Below, piece after piece: positions 3,854-13,062 of a DNA stretch of 20,648 nucleotides (the first letter of the stretch is position 1; each line of letters begins with the position of its first letter). A model generated the notes under the pieces. That model saw nothing but the letters and a program-made list of their open reading frames with translations, was not told where the DNA came from and made no database searches. Where the stretch lies: positions 1 to 20,648 of IMG/VR virus record IMGVR_UViG_3300043409_000996, one strand, 5' to 3'. Both the position numbers and the translations under genes were made by a program. Origin of the DNA: a virus.

Positions 3854-4972
3854 TTAATTTATTACTCTAACAATAATTGTATCAGAGTTAATGCGCCCTG
3901 TCAACTCGGAAGGCTTGGTAGACAATCCGTCTAACAGTTTTTTCAACACAATCTTGCCACCATCAAGTACTTGTTTAACATTTACCTCTGGCTTACGCAA
4001 ACGTTTGCCCGTGGATGTTTCAGCATTGAAGTTTTGAATTGTCGTACCTTTGATTGTCAGTCCTTTTGCATTATCTGCATTGTACATACCCAACAATTTA
4101 GTTTTGGTATTATACAACCACACTTGATTTGCACCAATAATCTTTTCTGGTAGAACACTCTTCAAATTCAACTCAGCGAAATCTTTCATGTATTGCACTT
4201 TAGCGGCAATGACACTTGCGGGTTTCTCTTTTACTTTACGTGCTTTACGTGTAGGTTTCTTTTCTGCACCACGATTTGTTTCTGCAACAATTGCATCATA
4301 GAATTCTTTAATCTTACGCAATTGCACTTTACTGAAATTAGAATATGCTTCTTTGATATCAGCATCGGACGTATTCATTACTTCTTCGAATTCTTTAGAA
4401 CGTTTAATGAACACTTCACACATACGCTTTTGTACAACGGAAGATAATTCTTTACTCTTCAGATACGATTGCATATCTGGTTGCGACTTGAATCCGCCAG
4501 TAATAAATTCATCTACAAGCCCTTCAATTTCACCGACTTCTTCAGATGCCTTTTCACGAATTCTATCTTGAATAGAAACGACTGGTGTAGTTGATGCGAC
4601 AACGGGTGCTTTTGTTTTTTTAGTTTTCTTTGCAGTCTCTAGAGCAGTCTTAAACTCTTTCACAAAGAACTTTTTGAATGTTTCAGATGGTTCGTAGCCC
4701 ATACACATCATACGTGCTACCCATCCCAATTGGCTAGGGATATATGTATCGCCCGATGACACTAAAGAAATTTCTTCTTTGGGTCGATCAATGCTAGCCA
4801 TGTATTCGACAACAAAAGTTTTTGCTTGCTTGTTGTCGCAAAAATAGTTATACCAATTCAATGCACGAATTTCTTGAATCTTAAGATTCTTCATTTCGGA
4901 CTGATCGGTCCAAGAAGGTTCTGTGCCAAATGCTTTTATATCAGCGCCAGTATTAATCTTGGAAAATTTCAT
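3854..4972 (-). CDS. T4-like conserved protein, unknown function, 372 aa
   Basis: A large soluble protein, Lys-rich and without a signal peptide. The N-terminal third (MKFSKINTGADIKAFG, then RALNWYNYFCDNKQAKTFVVEYM) and GWVARMMCMGY are followed by a Lys/Thr-rich linker (about 116-127). A helical middle (DRIREKASEEVGEIEGLVDEF) and a basic segment (RGAEKKPTRKARKVKEKP) follow. The C-terminal domain is rich in beta strands (VWLYNTKTKLLGMYN, GTTIQNFN). Similar proteins occur in T4-like cyanophages as hypotheticals (from memory). The basic linkers suggest nucleic-acid contact, but no catalytic motif is seen. Its last 50 nt hold the promoter for the next gene. Confidence 0.75.
   Translation of the reverse strand: MKFSKINTGADIKAFGTEPSWTDQSEMKNLKIQEIRALNWYNYFCDNKQAKTFVVEYMASIDRPKEEISLVSSGDTYIPSQLGWVARMMCMGYEPSETFKKFFVKEFKTALETAKKTKKTKAPVVASTTPVVSIQDRIREKASEEVGEIEGLVDEFITGGFKSQPDMQSYLKSKELSSVVQKRMCEVFIKRSKEFEEVMNTSDADIKEAYSNFSKVQLRKIKEFYDAIVAETNRGAEKKPTRKARKVKEKPASVIAAKVQYMKDFAELNLKSVLPEKIIGANQVWLYNTKTKLLGMYNADNAKGLTIKGTTIQNFNAETSTGKRLRKPEVNVKQVLDGGKIVLKKLLDGLSTKPSELTGRINSDTIIVRVIN
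3876..3904 (-). promoter_or_regulatory. sigma70-type promoter inside the end of the 372-aa gene
   Basis: Minus strand: TTGACA (3899-3904), 17-nt spacer, TACAAT (3876-3881). It lies within the last codons of the 372-aa gene and about 35 nt ahead of the 60-aa gene, which leads into RNase H. Confidence 0.75.
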
Positions 4973-4975
4973 AGT

Positions 4976-5275
4976 TTATTCACCCAATGTAAATGATACA
5001 GACTTGATAGAATCGTAACGGAATGAACGCCATTCATTCTTCTCCAAGTCAACTACAGAGATAGACTCATCGGTTGAAGTGGTGCGAACACGTTCGGTTT
5101 TCTTTTCGTATGTTGGGATTGCAGACTCTTGCAATGTGCATTTCATGGTACGCATTGTGCCGTCTTTCTTGAGAAAGTCAACAGTCACAGGACCATATTT
5201 CAGATGGCTAGTCAGCCAGTCACGAAATAATTTCTGCTCTTTTGGTGTGGTTGTTGCATAATAAAAATTTGTCAT
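4976..5275 (-). CDS. T4-like conserved small protein (DUF2693/WYL-like fold), 99 aa
   Basis: A small beta-rich protein: MTNFYYATTTPKEQKLFRDW, then KKDGTMRTMKCTL, a polar linker, and SVVDLEKNEWRSFRYDSIKS. The KDGT...CTL and W-R-SFR-DS pattern is shared by a family of small T4-like phage proteins and recalls DUF2693 and the SH3-like WYL fold; the assignment is from memory. I start it at the ATG at 5275 because GGAG lies 9 nt upstream, rather than at 5290, whose ATG itself overlaps that GGAG. It has its own promoter at 5320-5348. Confidence 0.75.
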   Translation of the reverse strand: MTNFYYATTTPKEQKLFRDWLTSHLKYGPVTVDFLKKDGTMRTMKCTLQESAIPTYEKKTERVRTTSTDESISVVDLEKNEWRSFRYDSIKSVSFTLGE

Positions 5276-6816: not shown

Positions 6817-6845
6817 AGTATAACACACCATATATGGCATGTCAA
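6817..6845 (-). promoter_or_regulatory. sigma70-type promoter for the two secreted proteins
   Basis: Minus strand: TTGACA (6840-6845), 17-nt spacer, TATACT (6817-6822). The -35 box overlaps the stop codon of the GIY-YIG gene. Confidence 0.85.
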
Positions 6846-7159
6846 AATGTATTCAACGATGGCTCAAACTCGGCAATCAATTCTCTTTCACGCTGATGCG
6901 CTGGCTTACGTCCACGAATCACTTCAAGAACTTCATATTGCCATGCGGCACCAGCCAACTCACGCAACGCATTACACATTGCCCAGTTTTTGTTTTCGCA
7001 CTTCGCACGACTCACATGTTTTTGCCAACGGATTTTAACCGAACGGACGTAGGCTTGTCCCTGTGCAACAGTCAAGCCAACATATGAATCGCCAGTATCT
7101 ACACATGTAACTTTGTACAGTACATGGTTTCTGTCGGAACGTTTCTTTCTCAATGTCAT
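6842..7159 (-). CDS. GIY-YIG family nuclease, 105 aa
   Basis: A minimal GIY-YIG domain: VLYKVTC (13-19) and SYVGLT (26-31) are the GIY and YIG strands, R44 and H48 lie on the following helix (KIRWQKHVSRA), a Glu lies in RERELIAEF (91-98), and N103 closes the domain. All key residue types are present. Stand-alone domains like this are often free-standing homing endonucleases in phages, or short nucleases. The start is the ATG at 7159; the further-upstream GTG lies in the -10 box and cannot be used from this promoter. Only 6 nt separate the -10 box from the ATG, so the mRNA would be leaderless or nearly so. Confidence 0.8.
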   Translation of the reverse strand: MTLRKKRSDRNHVLYKVTCVDTGDSYVGLTVAQGQAYVRSVKIRWQKHVSRAKCENKNWAMCNALRELAGAAWQYEVLEVIRGRKPAHQRERELIAEFEPSLNTF

Positions 7160-7165
7160 ATATAC

Positions 7166-7193
7166 AGTATAACACACCCATGGTAGAAGTCAA
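7166..7193 (-). promoter_or_regulatory. sigma70-type promoter (P6) for the GIY-YIG gene
   Basis: Minus strand: TTGACT (7188-7193), 16-nt spacer, TATACT (7166-7171), with CAAAATAAC next to the -35 box. The start codon follows 6 nt after the -10 box. Confidence 0.85.
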
Positions 7194-7210: not shown

Positions 7211-7251
7211 GTTGTATTTTTGCAACGAATAAAGTGTTGTTTTTTTGACAC
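7211..7251. promoter_or_regulatory. two GTTG-N8-CAAC-like dyads between divergent promoters (copies 4 and 5)
   Basis: GTTGTATTTTTGCAAC at 7211-7226 lies exactly as far from the P6 -35 box as copy 1 lies from P1. A 14/16 match to copy 1 (GTTGTTTTTTTGACAC) follows at 7236-7251, 25 nt further. The outer copy overlaps a TTGACA at 7245-7250 that points rightward into the plus-strand island, so a bound protein could affect both directions. Confidence 0.45.
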
Positions 7252-7282
7252 AAAAAGCGAAAAATATAGTATATCATAAATA
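7245..7282 (+). promoter_or_regulatory. Candidate rightward promoters for the plus-strand island
   Basis: A perfect TTGACA at 7245-7250 is followed by TATATC-like or TAGTAT-like -10 boxes at less than ideal spacing (16 or 19 nt). CATAAATA at 7275-7282 matches the T4 late core TATAAATA at 7 of 8. Either would give a leader of about 115-125 nt ahead of the first gene at 7409. Because this unit encodes holin-like proteins, the late-type element is the more interesting candidate. Confidence 0.4.
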
Positions 7283-7344
7283 TAAAAGTGATTGTTATTT
7301 TTGATATGATCTGTCAAAAAAATGACTCGACTAAATCCCGCCGT

Positions 7345-7367
7345 GGGCTAATGTTTAACATGTGCCC
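7345..7367 (+). promoter_or_regulatory. Hairpin in the leader of the plus-strand unit
   Basis: GGGC..ATGT pairs with ACAT..GCCC across a 3-nt loop with a 2x2 internal mismatch. It ends about 40 nt before the start codon at 7409. There is no clear ribosome-binding site before that codon, so the leader structure might influence translation. No riboswitch family is recognised. Confidence 0.3.
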
Positions 7368-7408
7368 ATATACATACATTGTATTAACTATATCCACCCA
7401 TAAATCAT

Positions 7409-8251
7409 ATGAAAAAATTATTAGCCACATTATTTTTGATAGTCTCGTCAATTGCATATGCACAATTGCCGACTTCAACAGTACCACTTTCGCCAGATAT
7501 TGCCGCAATTAAAAAGCGCAATGTCTTAATAGTATCAATGACTAAAAAAGATAATCCCCCATTTTTCAGCGGCGATGAAGAAAATATTCGAGGACTTGAT
7601 GTTGAAATTGCACGCCGAATTGGTGTTGTAATTGGAGTTCCCGTACAGTTTAGGCGAGATGCAGAAAGTTTTGCTGAAGTAGTTGAACAAGTTAGAGACG
7701 GCAGAGCAGATATTGCAGTATCTAAATTATCAATTACTGGTCCAAGATTACTTACTGTACGATTCAGCGACCCATATATTAAACTCAAACAAGCAATGAT
7801 TATTAATCGTTTATGGCTAAGTCAAAATGGACAAGGCAAAGAAGTATATGAAGTGATTAGAACATTCAACGGCAAGATATCTTTCATTCGTAATAGCAGT
7901 TATGATACATTTGCAAGAGCAAACTTTCCAAAAGCAGTATATACACCAGAAGATAGTTGGGATAAAATTATCAGCAATGTAACTAGTGGCGCTATTGCGG
8001 CTGGTTATAGAGATGAATTTGAAATTAAGAAAATTTCATTTGAGTTTCCTAACGCCGCAATTACTACAAAGACAGTTACAATATCAGACAGCATAGACAA
8101 TATTGCTGTGGCAGTTAATGTGAATTCTACCCAATTACTTGGCATAGTTAACTATGTTATTAAAAATGAATATAGTAACATTGACACCAAAAAATTAATG
8201 GATCGATACAAGGCTGAGAAAAAACTTGTTGCTCCAACAGTAACAAAATAA
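7409..8251 (+). CDS. Periplasmic solute-binding protein, family 3 (amino-acid type), 280 aa
   Basis: Residues 1-18 are a signal peptide ending AYA before QLP, with no lipobox, so the mature protein is soluble in the periplasm. The rest is the SBP_bac_3 fold: NVLIVSMTKKDNPPF near the N-terminus, IRGLDVEIARRIG (60-72; the family hallmark G-x-D-x-E-I-A), VEQVRDGRADIAVSKLSIT, then R..RFSDPY, and the second lobe from about 130. Such proteins bind polar or acidic amino acids for ABC importers. Here no ABC permease or ATPase follows; a DAACS symporter starts 12 nt downstream. It may hand substrate to the symporter or act as a sensor. No clear ribosome-binding site precedes the ATG. Confidence 0.88.
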   Translation: MKKLLATLFLIVSSIAYAQLPTSTVPLSPDIAAIKKRNVLIVSMTKKDNPPFFSGDEENIRGLDVEIARRIGVVIGVPVQFRRDAESFAEVVEQVRDGRADIAVSKLSITGPRLLTVRFSDPYIKLKQAMIINRLWLSQNGQGKEVYEVIRTFNGKISFIRNSSYDTFARANFPKAVYTPEDSWDKIISNVTSGAIAAGYRDEFEIKKISFEFPNAAITTKTVTISDSIDNIAVAVNVNSTQLLGIVNYVIKNEYSNIDTKKLMDRYKAEKKLVAPTVTK

Positions 8252-8263
8252 TTAGGAAAAATC

Positions 8264-9550
8264 ATGCAATTTAATTTAAAATCATTTCTCTCTAGCCCGT
8301 GGACTATATTGAGTTCTATTATAGTGGGTGTGCTGGCTGGTGTGTACGCACCTGCCTTTAGCATGAACTTTGAAAGCATTGGTGGTATCTATATTAGCTT
8401 ACTTAAAGTGGTTGTAATTCCATTCTTGTTAGCTACAATTTTAGTTGGTGTTATCAGTCTTCTACAAAAAGAAGGTAGCGCAACAATGATACGCAAAATT
8501 ATTATTGGCTTTGTTGCTAGTATGTTTATTGCCGCAGTTATTGGAGTTGGCACAGTTGCATTGACTGGTAGCGAAATGACACCCGCAAAGCAAGCACAAC
8601 TCGGTTCAATTGTTAACGATAAAGAATCTGGTAGTGATCTCAATATCACACTAAAAGAACCTATGCCTGCCGCAGCCCATGTTGACCCAATGCAGATGGC
8701 GCAGAAATTTATTCCAGAAAACATTTTCAATACACTAGCCGCTGGTGAGAGTTTGAAGATTGTTATTTTCTGTTTAATCTTTGGTATTGCACTCGGCAAT
8801 ATTAAAAGCACAGGACAAGAAATCTTAGTTGATATGCTGAAGAGTGTTCAACAAGCAAGTATTAGCATCTTTAAATTTTTAAACTACTTTCTTCCATTTG
8901 CATTATTGGCAATGATTAGTAGTCAAGTAGGCAAAGTTGGTGTTGGTATCTTCTTGACTATGGTTGAGTTTATTATGCAACAAGCAATTGGTGGTTTCTT
9001 AGTTATTGCCGTAGGTACTTTTGTTATTTGGAAACGATCTGGATTAAGTCTGATGACTGTTATTCGTGAAACTAAAGAGACATTGATTGTCGCTGTCAGT
9101 TCACGCAGTTCATTAGCATGTATTCCATATGCACAAGAAGCATTGCATAAGTTGAAATTTGATAGAACAGGAGTTGAATTAACTGTTCCATTAAGTTTCA
9201 CAGTTAATCGTATCGGTAGTATTGTGTATTACGCAATTGCTACTGTATTCATTGCTAACATCTATGGCGCACCAATGGGCTTGACTGGATTAGCTGTTGT
9301 ATTGTTTGGTAGTATCTTAGCAGGACTTGCTAGTGCAGGCACAACAGGTATTCTTACTGTTGCTACTGTAGCAGTTGTTTGTGATTTGTTGAAACTTCCT
9401 AGTGAAGCTGTTTTAATATTGTTGATTGCAGTTGATCCGTTGATGGATATGATTCGCACAGCAAGTCATGTACATGGCAATGTAGCAGTAACCGCATTCG
9501 TATGCGACAAGGAAATAACAGATGGACAAACTCAAAGAGTTACTACTTGA
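8264..9550 (+). CDS. Acidic amino-acid/dicarboxylate symporter, DAACS (GltP/GltPh) family, 428 aa
   Basis: A full-length secondary transporter with about eight membrane helices and two re-entrant hairpins: HP1 with SSRSS (279-283) and HP2 with SAGTTG (357-362). In the last helix D391, D395, R398 and T399 correspond to GltPh D390, D394, R397 and T398, so the substrate amino-group Asp and side-chain carboxylate Arg are kept, predicting Asp/Glu-like cargo. The TM7 motif NMDGT reads NRIGS (315-319), and GltPh N401 and D405 are H402 and N406, so sodium ligands are changed. Good AGGAA ribosome-binding site. The next gene begins within its last 29 nt. Confidence 0.9.
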   Translation: MQFNLKSFLSSPWTILSSIIVGVLAGVYAPAFSMNFESIGGIYISLLKVVVIPFLLATILVGVISLLQKEGSATMIRKIIIGFVASMFIAAVIGVGTVALTGSEMTPAKQAQLGSIVNDKESGSDLNITLKEPMPAAAHVDPMQMAQKFIPENIFNTLAAGESLKIVIFCLIFGIALGNIKSTGQEILVDMLKSVQQASISIFKFLNYFLPFALLAMISSQVGKVGVGIFLTMVEFIMQQAIGGFLVIAVGTFVIWKRSGLSLMTVIRETKETLIVAVSSRSSLACIPYAQEALHKLKFDRTGVELTVPLSFTVNRIGSIVYYAIATVFIANIYGAPMGLTGLAVVLFGSILAGLASAGTTGILTVATVAVVCDLLKLPSEAVLILLIAVDPLMDMIRTASHVHGNVAVTAFVCDKEITDGQTQRVTT

Positions 9551-10127
9551 ACTTTTAAAGTTCATAGGCGAAAGCCCATTTAGACTATTCACAGTTATTC
9601 TACTTTGCTTTTTGGGTTTTGGTGGATGGATAATCTACTCCGAAAAGGATGCCTTTATGACATCCTATCGGGCTCAACAAGCACTACCAAAGATGAATGG
9701 TAAGTATGAAGAGGCTACGAATTTTATAATCAAAAACACGACAGCAGAGATGGTTGCTATTCTTGAAGTAAATACATTAGTAAATACTAGAAAAATAGCA
9801 TATCTATTTACTAGAGGTGCCGGAAGAGACAAAAACCATGACGGAGTTAATGTTGGACTGTTCTCAAAAAATTACGACAACAACAATGATGTAATTGGTT
9901 TAATGTCTGGCAAGATTCCCTGTAGCCCATATCTGAAACCGCAAAGTTTTATTGGATTTATCTATCGTGATTATGGCGTAACCTATATGTGCAGAATCAG
10001 CGTTCCTTCTGAACCTGGTGTGTTTATTGGACAAATCTCTGTTGGATGGAAAGAAACGCCAGAGAATTTGGATGATGTGCAAACCGCAATGCAAATAGCA
10101 TCGGGAATACTATTCAACAAAAAATGA
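9522..10127 (+). CDS. T4 T-like holin paralogue 1 (probable), 201 aa
   Basis: One N-terminal membrane helix (about 21-39, preceded by a short cytoplasmic part) and a large periplasmic domain with two cysteines (C134, C157), as in T4 holin T (218 aa, helix near residues 35-55). The ending YMCRISVP...FIGQISVGW followed by a final helix lines up by eye with T's C-terminus (CPYF...AGTITMYW, then AARIL helix); this comparison is from memory. T forms the membrane lesion that times lysis. The start has AAGGAA 8 nt upstream, confirming the 29-nt overlap with the symporter gene. Overlaps the racemase by 4 nt. Confidence 0.6.
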   Translation: MDKLKELLLELLKFIGESPFRLFTVILLCFLGFGGWIIYSEKDAFMTSYRAQQALPKMNGKYEEATNFIIKNTTAEMVAILEVNTLVNTRKIAYLFTRGAGRDKNHDGVNVGLFSKNYDNNNDVIGLMSGKIPCSPYLKPQSFIGFIYRDYGVTYMCRISVPSEPGVFIGQISVGWKETPENLDDVQTAMQIASGILFNKK

Positions 10128-10822
10128 AAAAATTAGGTGTGCTAGGGGGAATGGGTCCGGCCGCATCGGCTGAATTTATAAATAGATTGATAGCACAAAC
10201 TCCAGCGTCTTGCGATCAAGAACATATTCCATTTGTGCTATGGAGTGATCCTCGTGTGCCTGATCGTAGCACTAGTTTGCGTAATGGGGACAATCTACCG
10301 TTATCATTGCTTCTAGAAGGCATACTGGGATTGAAAAACGCTGGATGTAATTGCATTGTTATACCATGTAATACTGCACATTTCTGGTTTGATGAAATGA
10401 AAAGACATGCATCATGGAATTCAAAAATTATTCATATTGTCGATAGCGTTGCTGATGCATTGCGAGATGTGAAAGTAACAAACTCTACAATAGGAATCAT
10501 CGGAACACAAGCCACAATTGAGTTAGGCTTGTATCAATATATGCTGAATAAATTGGGTTGGAATTGTATCACTCCTGATAAAGAGGAGATGGATACATTA
10601 GTACAACCAGCAATTAATCTAATAAAGGCTAACAATATTGAAGCCGCCCAACCATTGATAATGAATGTTGTGAATAGATTAATTGCTAATGGAGCAAAGG
10701 CAGTTGTATTGGGGTGTACTGAATTACCTCTTGCAGTTAAACAAACTGAAGAGCAAGGAATTCCGTTAATTAATAGTATTGATAGTTTGGTTAAAGCAAC
10801 TCTTCTTTGGAATCGTCAATAA
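10124..10822 (+). CDS. Aspartate/glutamate racemase, 232 aa
   Basis: A complete PLP-independent racemase of the Asp/Glu family. It has GVLGGMGPAAS (5-15), the first catalytic Cys C82 in IPCNTAH, the second C198 in LGCTELPL, and a substrate-binding SD...R segment (41-48). Both cysteines are present, so it should interconvert L- and D-Asp (or Glu) in the cytoplasm. It is nearer in motifs to aspartate racemase (RacD/YgeA-like) than to MurI. Its ATG overlaps the stop of the holin-like gene (ATGA), so it is translationally coupled. It sits between two paralogous holin-like genes. Confidence 0.9.
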   Translation: MKKLGVLGGMGPAASAEFINRLIAQTPASCDQEHIPFVLWSDPRVPDRSTSLRNGDNLPLSLLLEGILGLKNAGCNCIVIPCNTAHFWFDEMKRHASWNSKIIHIVDSVADALRDVKVTNSTIGIIGTQATIELGLYQYMLNKLGWNCITPDKEEMDTLVQPAINLIKANNIEAAQPLIMNVVNRLIANGAKAVVLGCTELPLAVKQTEEQGIPLINSIDSLVKATLLWNRQ

Positions 10823-10870
10823 GCATTTTTGGGTAGTATTTTGTTATGTTAAAAATAACAGGAAACAACC

Positions 10871-11623
10871 ATGAGAACGCCAGTCAAAAAAGCACCAGCA
10901 AAAAAAGTTGCTGTAAAGAAATCTCCAGTCAAAAAAGTTGTCGCTAAGCCGACACCAGTTAAGCGCACCAAAAAACCAACAGCATCTTCTCCCATCGTCA
11001 TTGATGTTAGCAGTACTACTAAATCTGCATCGTCAATGCTAGATAAAGCCATTGATCTAATTAAGTGGGTTGACACACCTTTTAAATTGTTTGAAGTTAT
11101 TCTTCTTGCTAGTGTATTCTTTTTTGGATACTTTGCATGGGACAGTAGAACAGTTATTTTAAATGCTATCACACAATCAAGTCATGTAACAAATCTCAAA
11201 GAAGTTAATCATCTTGTTCCAGTTGCGGAGAGTTTACAAAAAGATTTAGAAGCAACAACTGTAATTGTACACAAAGCATCTCTTAATGTGAATACAAGAA
11301 AAACGATGTTAGCATTTGGTCCGAAGGGAAGAGATAATTCGCTAGATGGATTGAATTCTAGTTTGTTTAGTAAAGATCAATCTAGAAATGCTGGCATCAT
11401 TGGTATGCTAAATGGTGAAGTTGTTTGCGATAAAATAAGTGTGCTTGATAAATCTTCTGAGTGGGAATTTAAACAAGGCGTGACATTTGTTTGCCGTGGT
11501 GGTATTCCTCCTGAGATTGGAGATTTTGATGGATATGTTGCTGTGGGATGGAGAAAAGAGCCTAGTGACATTGCTGTTATTAAGACTAGAATTAATCTAG
11601 CATCTTCTGAAATGTCACAATGA
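10871..11623 (+). CDS. T4 T-like holin paralogue 2 with an H1-like basic N-terminus, 250 aa
   Basis: The C-terminal 180 residues are related to the 201-aa protein: shared NVNTRK, GRD...LDGLN...LFSKD, IIGMLNGE, VTFVCRGGIP and VAVGWRKEP, and the same Cys pair (C186, C208). One membrane helix at about 72-90. Before it lies a Lys/Ala/Pro/Val-repeat tail (residues 2-38, PVKKAPAKK-type) like eukaryotic H1 or bacterial AlgP/HctB tails; in T's topology this would face the cytoplasm. CAGGAAAC precedes the ATG. A 48-nt gap separates it from the racemase. Holin assignment is by architecture and recalled similarity to T. Confidence 0.6.
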   Translation: MRTPVKKAPAKKVAVKKSPVKKVVAKPTPVKRTKKPTASSPIVIDVSSTTKSASSMLDKAIDLIKWVDTPFKLFEVILLASVFFFGYFAWDSRTVILNAITQSSHVTNLKEVNHLVPVAESLQKDLEATTVIVHKASLNVNTRKTMLAFGPKGRDNSLDGLNSSLFSKDQSRNAGIIGMLNGEVVCDKISVLDKSSEWEFKQGVTFVCRGGIPPEIGDFDGYVAVGWRKEPSDIAVIKTRINLASSEMSQ

Positions 11624-11901
11624 GATGGATTGTGCTATTCGTAAGTATGTTTGTGTTGGTCGGATCGACAGCACAATCGCCAGCATCATGTAATCTCGGC
11701 GAGTTTAAAACTATTGCGCTGACAACGCATCATCCGGCGGAGCGCAACGAAAAAGTAATTTTGTGGTTAAAACAAAACGGTTCTCAATGCGATAAAGAAC
11801 AAGTCACAAAGATTTACAATAGTTTATCCTATCTACTAGGAACATCAGATAACGGTGAAGTTCGTGCTGTGACATATGAATTATATCGAAACGCAAAATA
11901 A
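11620..11901 (+). CDS. Secreted 93-aa protein with two cysteines; possible antiholin-like partner
   Basis: Residues 1-18 are a signal peptide or signal-anchor (MRWIVLFVSMFVLVGSTA). The mature part has two cysteines (C24, C57) and mostly helical content (HHPAERNEKVILWLKQNG, QVTKIYNSLSYLLG). It overlaps the T-like holin gene by 4 nt (ATGA), so the two are made together. T4's RI antiholin is also a small (97-aa) secreted protein that binds the periplasmic domain of T. Size, location and gene order fit, but I see no sequence match to RI. It could equally be another periplasmic lysis or virion protein. Confidence 0.65.
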   Translation: MRWIVLFVSMFVLVGSTAQSPASCNLGEFKTIALTTHHPAERNEKVILWLKQNGSQCDKEQVTKIYNSLSYLLGTSDNGEVRAVTYELYRNAK

Positions 11902-12135
11902 ATGGACGCCGTTCAATGGTTCCCAATAGTACAGCCAAGCTATGCAAATGTTGATGGCATACTAGCGGATGTACATGCTAGAAAAAATGAAGAAAAGTGG
12001 GAAGAATACAATAAACAACTAATTGAAAAAATACATCTTAGAGATTATTTGTATGATTTGTATTTAAAAAGAGCGCACGAAAAACAAATACGCATGGAAA
12101 TATTCAATGCGAATTCAATTGATGTTTATGTCTAA
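11902..12135 (+). CDS. 77-aa helical protein, T4-like conserved, unknown
   Basis: Begins on the base after the stop of the 93-aa gene with no ribosome-binding site, so it depends on coupling. No signal peptide. MDAVQWFPIVQPSYANVDGI is followed by a long charged helix (ARKNEEKWEEYNKQLIEKIHLRDYLYDLYLKRA by composition, about 27-60) and FNANSIDVYV. I recall similar short proteins in T4-like cyanophages, without a function. It is the last gene of the plus-strand unit and ends 2 nt from the end of a convergent gene. Confidence 0.65.
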   Translation: MDAVQWFPIVQPSYANVDGILADVHARKNEEKWEEYNKQLIEKIHLRDYLYDLYLKRAHEKQIRMEIFNANSIDVYV

Positions 12136-12441: not shown

Positions 12442-13062
12442 TTAAGTTAAAATTTCAATCGCATGATTGTAATGATTGATTCTGTCTTCTAAACCAATGT
12501 ATCCACCATTGATTCGTTTTGTCATTGTCTTAATGTCTCCAATATCTGCTAGTTCATTTAGTCTAGCGGCAGACCAGAACCAACAAGCAGAATGAATAGC
12601 ATACTCTGTTTCAAGTAACAAATCAGGATTCTCAACTAGCACATTGCTCTCAAACAATGATTGCGAACACTTGGTGTAGTTGTTCTTTCCTGTAATCTGT
12701 ACAATGCCTCTACCACGAAAGTACCAACCTTCTCCAGATGCTTCATCTCCATTACCCATACGATTAGCGTACACACGATTAGCAATCATCTGTGGTTTGC
12801 GTTCGTATGGTTTTGCTTGAGCCTCGGTCGGAAAGTATTTCTTGAAAGTGCCAACTAGACCTTTTGCAGAGTAATTCAAATTCTCTTGCATAAGAGTAAA
12901 CCCACCAGATTCATGTCCACATTGTGCCATGAATGCCGCAACTCTATGCGGTGTGTCTATGTCGTATTCTGGCAATATATTCAGTAAATTATTATACCAT
13001 TCGTCAAAGTTTTTTACTTTAGGTATCAACTGTCTTACTGCATCTTCCGTAAAAAAGTCCAT
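12442..13062 (-). CDS. GH19 chitinase-like endolysin, 206 aa
   Basis: A single GH19 catalytic domain: HESGGF with the acid Glu E51, second Glu E60 in LMQENLNYS, GWYFRGRGIVQITGKNNY (112-129) and the closing RINGGYIGLEDR. Phage members cleave peptidoglycan rather than chitin. There is no signal peptide or anchor, so it should accumulate in the cytoplasm and need a holin to reach the wall; the T-like holin genes encoded convergently nearby fit. Start ATG at 13062 has AGGAG at good spacing and follows the late-type promoter at 13084-13097. Confidence 0.9.
   Translation of the reverse strand: MDFFTEDAVRQLIPKVKNFDEWYNNLLNILPEYDIDTPHRVAAFMAQCGHESGGFTLMQENLNYSAKGLVGTFKKYFPTEAQAKPYERKPQMIANRVYANRMGNGDEASGEGWYFRGRGIVQITGKNNYTKCSQSLFESNVLVENPDLLLETEYAIHSACWFWSAARLNELADIGDIKTMTKRINGGYIGLEDRINHYNHAIEILT

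Follow-up and report, generated by a model that had tools for sequence, protein, structure and literature searches.

Gene content and organisation of the locus

We analysed a locus of the virus record IMGVR_UViG_3300043409_000996, taken at its full length of 20,648 bases (the window). Families were assigned to its open reading frames (ORFs) from Pfam, PHROGs and NCBIfam profiles. Seven ORFs follow each other on the plus strand, and convincing genes flank them on both sides on the minus strand. They encode, in order, a secreted family-3 solute-binding protein (SBP), a homologue of the DAACS/SDF transporters (SYM), a T-like holin candidate (M1), an Asp/Glu-type racemase (RAC), a second T-like holin candidate (M2) and two small proteins (o6 and o7) (Table 1). 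As described in the initial annotation, and as the ORF list confirms, these genes are tightly packed: SYM and M1 overlap by 29 nucleotides (nt), M1 and RAC by 4 nt and M2 and o6 by 4 nt, and the overlap of o6 and o7 is 0 nt. The ORF list also gives gaps of 12 nt (SBP-SYM) and 48 nt (RAC-M2).

The seven genes had also been taken for a single locked set, which is not the case. The window shares its flanking genes with two near relatives (L211 and L212), but in them the u6842 gene runs straight into M2-o6-o7, and homology to the window ends at position 7214 and resumes at ~10876-11001. Since these cassette-free relatives keep M2-o6-o7, a seven-gene operon was rejected. Unit 1 (7409-10822; SBP, SYM, M1 and RAC) and unit 2 (10871-12135; M2, o6 and o7) are separate evolutionary units, and unit 1 is a cassette whose insertion site is unoccupied in near relatives.

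Two other observations concern this site. A weak GIY-YIG nuclease-like ORF (6842-7177 of the window) adjoins the insertion point. In the relatives L202 and L203 (~4334-4992), the slot between u6842 and M2 is filled by two other small membrane-protein genes; this slot looks like a variable insertion site.

Table 1. Features of the locus, with positions in the window
Feature	Position	Strand	Basis
Inserted cassette (approximate limits)	7215..10870	+	where homology to L211/L212 breaks off and resumes
T4-type late promoter-like element CATAAATA, 5' of the cassette	7275..7282	+	[TC]ATAAATA motif search
SBP, secreted family-3 solute-binding protein, amino-acid type	7409..8251	+	Pfam SBP_bac_3 (5e-17), alignment, PDB profile matches
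SYM, DAACS/SDF transporter homologue	8264..9550	+	Pfam SDF (1.6e-65)
M1, holin candidate of the T-like (class III) type with a single transmembrane segment and a GAF-like periplasmic domain	9522..10127	+	AlphaFold (AF2) model, structure search, transmembrane prediction
RAC, Asp/Glu-type racemase	10124..10822	+	Asp/Glu racemase profile (1.9e-43), NCBIfam, both catalytic Cys
M2, the lineage's own T-like holin candidate, Lys/Ala-rich N-terminal tail	10871..11623	+	PHROG 31287; 27% identical to M1
o6, small protein linked to M2, secreted and helical, two Cys invariant; antiholin candidate on positional grounds only	11620..11901	+	
o7, small soluble protein, 3' of o6 in part of the lineage	11902..12135	+	locus comparison
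Phage GH19 endolysin, in convergent orientation to the plus-strand genes	12442..13062	-	phrog_181 endolysin (7e-79)

Conservation and mobility of the cassette

IMG/VR was scanned with SYM, RAC, M1 and M2 as queries, and each locus was then re-read; most of the viral records are fragments of uncultured phages. M1 lies directly 3' of SYM in 228 of 228 readable loci, and SBP lies upstream of SYM in all 219 loci with readable upstream DNA; both counts include repeat fetches of the same contigs, and the number of distinct phage SYM sequences whose downstream DNA could be read is 66, with 0 exceptions. Across these 66 sequences, which come from at least 10 unrelated neighbourhoods, no phage SYM lacked M1. 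This recurrent SBP-SYM-M1 order is therefore not due to chance. The symporter had been placed next to a membrane gene in the initial annotation, and synteny bears this out for M1, from which the transporter was never found apart. RAC usually follows M1, and is absent from 12 of the 64 cassettes with room for it; it is not essential to the cassette. The reading-frame overlap between SYM and M1 is mostly 29 or 14 nt, and SBP and SYM are mostly separated by 9 or 12 nt or overlap by 4 nt. A large terminase was found in 10 of 17 cassette-bearing records tested.

For at least 10 cassettes, the 5-kb flanks are mutually unrelated, and SYM reaches 98.8% identity between cassettes with unrelated flanks. 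The cassette therefore moves. SBP-SYM-M1(-RAC) is thus shown to be a horizontally mobile unit, in which a bacterial-type pair for amino-acid recognition and transport is joined to a T-like holin candidate. In the literature searched, we found no precedent for a phage set of symporter, racemase and holin.

One record of 524,565 bp (IMGVR_UViG_3300027749_002876) carries two cassettes (L016 and L078) on opposite strands of the same contig. Their SYM proteins are 97.9% identical and their M1 proteins fall in different branches.

The cassette of the window is preceded by a candidate late-promoter element, CATAAATA, of the TATAAATA type. Of 58 distinct cassettes, 46 have the motif [TC]ATAAATA in the 200 nt that precede SBP (mean of 3.5 and maximum of 8 in 200 shuffled resamplings), a count that common descent explains in part. 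In the same cassettes, this element was never found upstream of SYM or RAC. These data suggest that the cassette is switched on late in infection. The element most often lies 13-15 nt before the SBP start codon (L009, L012, L016, L026 and others) and 134 nt before it in the window; a spacing of 13-15 nt would give a nearly leaderless late mRNA.

Features of the cassette proteins

The initial annotation of SBP as a periplasmic family-3 binding protein is supported by its Pfam match. R113 and D202 are invariant, and the alignment assigns them the roles of carboxylate-binding Arg and amino-binding acidic residue, respectively. SBP thus resembles the family-3 proteins of ABC uptake systems by its signal peptide and its amino-acid-binding residues, but differs from them in having no adjacent ABC permease or ATPase in the cassette. 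Moreover, the ABC permease domain PF00528 was detected in none of 16 phage records, whereas all 14 control genomes were positive. An M2-type second T-like holin was found in 2 of the 28 cassette-bearing records searched, where other, unrelated holins could be present. Since the cassette phages tested have no ABC permease and mostly no second T-like holin, the partner of SBP is probably SYM or M1.

SYM matches the SDF profile over 400 residues (222 bits for a cut-off of 27.9), and the claim of a DAACS symporter with acidic-cargo residues holds. For the comparison with DAACS/SLC1 transporters (GltPh, GltP and DctA), we used the GltPh residue numbering (D312, D394, R397, N401, D405, M311). The substrate-contact Asp and Arg of TM8, i.e. 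the acidic-substrate residues D394 and R397 of GltPh, are retained as D395 and R398 in 64 of 64 SYM sequences. In contrast, the typical NMDGT motif and the Na+-site residues (GltPh D312, N401 and D405) were not found in SYM, and their replacements are conserved across phage SYM proteins: NRIGS stands in place of NMDGT, and H402 and N406 occupy the positions of N401 and D405 (His and Asn in 64/64). Another difference is that an SBP gene accompanies the phage SYM in every case. In SYM, the place of the bound cation may be taken by a fixed positive charge, and we predict either Na+-independent transport or a receptor role. SBPs paired with a DAACS homologue in which the usual cation ligands are missing seem to form a separate branch of transporters or sensors.

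The claim that RAC is an Asp/Glu racemase with both cysteines was verified as well: among the readable homologues, 49/49 have Cys82 and 47/47 have Cys198. Of the NCBIfam equivalogs that RAC matches above cut-off, the best is CuyB, a cysteate racemase, and the cargo of the cassette could, on this profile match, be cysteate rather than Asp or Glu. All four racemases tested, phage and bacterial (window 10124-10822; L250, L121 and L102), exceed the CuyB cut-off.

The holin candidate M1 

The AF2 model of M1 (predicted local distance difference test score of 90) comprises a cytoplasmic helix, one transmembrane helix (helices 2-16 and 19-54) and a GAF-like domain. Transmembrane prediction agrees, with a single peak at residues 20-38 after a short cytoplasmic N-terminus. 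The best VIA match of the model is the periplasmic domain of the T4 holin T (6px4_B; Z 12.9, root-mean-square deviation 3.2, 133 residues aligned), and proteins annotated as T or class III holins are among its hits in the viral library. This fold match is not specific, as GAF domains score Z 12.3 to 12.7, tied with T. M1 and M2 belong to one PHROG (31287), with no annotated function, and neither matched any Pfam family. No sequence similarity between M1 and T4 T was found (hhalign probability 4.4), and a link at that level was rejected. The two T4-T-like holins of the initial annotation therefore stand in part: both look T-type and the M1 model matches T, but neither Pfam nor sequence similarity supports them.

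Genomic context associates M1 with endolysin genes. An M1 homologue adjoins lysozyme in Edwardsiella phage GF-2 and another lies near lysozyme in MW202825. In L164, the gene immediately 5' of an endolysin is an M1 with 71% identity, and SYM is lacking. The distance between endolysin and cassette in large records often amounts to tens or hundreds of kb. Taken together, fold, topology and context place M1 among the T-like proteins, and M1 probably works like a holin.

In T4, periplasmic control of lysis by T and its antiholin RI (class III, lysis inhibition) is established (PMC11413866). M1 and M2 resemble T in their short cytoplasmic N-terminus and single transmembrane segment, and also in the fold of the periplasmic domain (as modelled for M1) and in having a candidate partner acting in the periplasm. 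They differ from it by the lack of detectable sequence similarity, and the partners of M1 would be a 280-residue amino-acid SBP and a transporter instead of a small RI-like protein.

Stand-alone M1 genes were found at nine loci (eight distinct rows), nested among the cassette M1s in the M1 tree. This nesting is consistent with a loss of SBP-SYM and retention of M1. In L134, L135 and L156, the stand-alone M1 is followed by a 98-residue secreted protein, with a 4-nt overlap.

Bacterial relatives and type VI secretion

SBP-SYM pairs also exist in bacteria. In L120, a Burkholderiales metagenome-assembled genome (MAG) with ordinary bacterial genes on the contig, such a pair (66% identity to phage SYM) occurs without M1, and in two alphaproteobacterial MAGs SBP-SYM is accompanied by RAC on the opposite strand. 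This SYM type was found in 5 of 399 Burkholderiales genomes, in some of them as SBP-SYM-RAC-SYM2. In L254 (2070-15438), this order lies inside a type VI secretion system (T6SS) cluster with ClpV, VgrG, MORN, TssK (VasE) and TssL (DotU), as identified with Pfam. A T6SS setting was noted for SBP-SYM-RAC-SYM2 in L251 and L252 too; the Pfam check was made on L254.

The same order has been described in the T6SS-b of Paraburkholderia phymatum, where the symporters were proposed to sense dicarboxylates (PMC8356804). A literature search for an aspartate racemase acting as a T6SS effector found none. This accessory module (Bphy_5989-5992), also found in other Burkholderiales, shares with the phage cassette the order SBP, SDF symporter and Asp/Glu racemase, followed in bacteria by a second symporter, and its proteins are homologous to the phage ones in the Burkholderiales genomes read. 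However, the bacterial set is located between PAAR-like and tss genes and has no M1, whereas the phage cassette has M1 between SYM and RAC, lacks SYM2 and has a late-promoter element in front. The bacterial T6SS-type relatives of SYM also deviate from NMDGT, and they retain Arg where GltPh has M311. These observations point to a DAACS branch, always paired with a binding protein and with altered cation sites, that is common to phages and type VI secretion loci.

No T6SS gene was identified among the window ORFs looked at, and the T6SS-type SYM used as a query found no relatives in viral contigs. A bacterial origin of M1 was rejected, as searches run without a positive control found no M1 in the 399 genomes of Burkholderiales or in the three MAGs that carry related SBP-SYM pairs. 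Most simply, the phage cassette would be a bacterial SBP-SYM-RAC module that received a phage holin gene between SYM and RAC; we infer that the transfer went from bacteria to phages.

A putative role in lysis timing

We tentatively favour a role of the cassette in setting the time of lysis according to the amino acids that surround the cell. A gating of lysis by acidic amino acids, which the initial annotation had also proposed, is plausible and is our preferred reading; its other proposal, a nutrient uptake that shares the late transcript with a holin, is almost as probable. SBP would bind an amino acid in the periplasm and work with SYM, because an ABC permease is lacking. Depending on its occupancy or activity, the SBP-SYM pair would alter the time at which M1 triggers, as RI does in T4 when bound to the periplasmic domain of T. 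RAC, which is optional, would interconvert the imported enantiomers, and the natural signal would be Asp or Glu freed by the lysis of neighbouring cells. Such a role agrees with the unbroken linkage, with the late promoter element and with the lack of another T-like holin in most records. A stricter version of it is rather unlikely: a recruited SBP and a DAACS homologue that, with its cation-site residues replaced, may signal instead of pumping would form a ligand-gated clock controlling a T-like holin, so that Asp/Glu-like molecules from dying neighbours would advance or delay lysis.

Several points weigh against lysis timing. M1 occurs without SBP and SYM at four points of the M1 tree, and can therefore work without them. 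The distance correlation is 0.93 for SBP-SYM (partial 0.85) and clearly lower for M1-SBP (0.76) and M1-SYM (0.75). A co-evolution of M1 with SBP beyond that with SYM was sought by the same approach, which revealed no excess and no sign of a tight M1-SBP contact. According to this pattern, SBP and SYM therefore act as one functional pair, M1 being a linked and exchangeable output. Furthermore, the SBP-SYM-M1 linkage could come from shared late expression, and contact of SBP or SYM with M1, the ligand, transport and lysis activity are all predictions.

Metabolic genes are common in phages, and it is possible that SBP, SYM and RAC boost the supply of acidic amino acids late in infection, M1 being a holin that shares their transcript and moves along with them. 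The existence of a bacterial SBP-SYM-RAC-SYM2 operon without M1 and the freer exchange of M1 between cassettes, as compared with SBP and SYM, agree with this explanation. However, a nutritional role accounts poorly for the invariable presence of M1 beside SYM in phages and for the replacement of the Na+-site residues typical of DAACS.

Holins trigger on the collapse of the membrane potential. A flux of acidic amino acids through SYM might thus lower the proton motive force and trigger M1 without any protein contact, which would explain a constant adjacency despite the weak co-evolution of M1 with SBP and SYM. We consider this improbable, as the lost cation ligands of SYM may mean an uncoupled, non-depolarising transport. 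It is just as doubtful that M1 is a GAF-type periplasmic sensor or a subunit of an SBP-SYM transporter instead of a holin: GAF domains do match its model about as well as T, no sequence match links it to T4 T or to any Pfam family and phage SYM is always followed by M1, but its homologues adjoin or lie near lysozyme or, in L164, an endolysin without SYM, its structural matches include annotated T holins and bacterial SBP-SYM operons lack it. Finally, an attack by RAC, fed by the transporter, which would make D-Asp/D-Glu or drain L-Asp and so weaken peptidoglycan before lysis, as the initial annotation had partly proposed, agrees with a clear racemase family and two retained catalytic cysteines, but is highly improbable, racemisation being an unlikely core function because RAC is missing from 12 of 64 cassettes, including in the deepest M1 branches.

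To our knowledge, lysis inhibition, known from the T-even phages and a few others, is largely the only case in which phages sense the environment to control lysis. If lysis timing by amino acids is true, a mobile cassette combining a holin with an amino-acid SBP and transporter would represent a second route of environmental lysis sensing. The cassette is found in many large uncultured phages, and nutrient-dependent lysis timing is directly testable with its four genes.

The second unit

M2, mostly with o6, was found in 48 loci, and lies far from the cassette in records of 345 kb and 262 kb. o6 was found only with M2, and the conserved partners of M1 are therefore SBP and SYM instead. A fold search with o6 for an RI-type antiholin gave no significant structural match of any kind. 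M2 and o6 are possibly a holin/antiholin pair. In most M2 loci (window 10871-11901; L202-L248), the two genes form a conserved pair with a 4-nt overlap.

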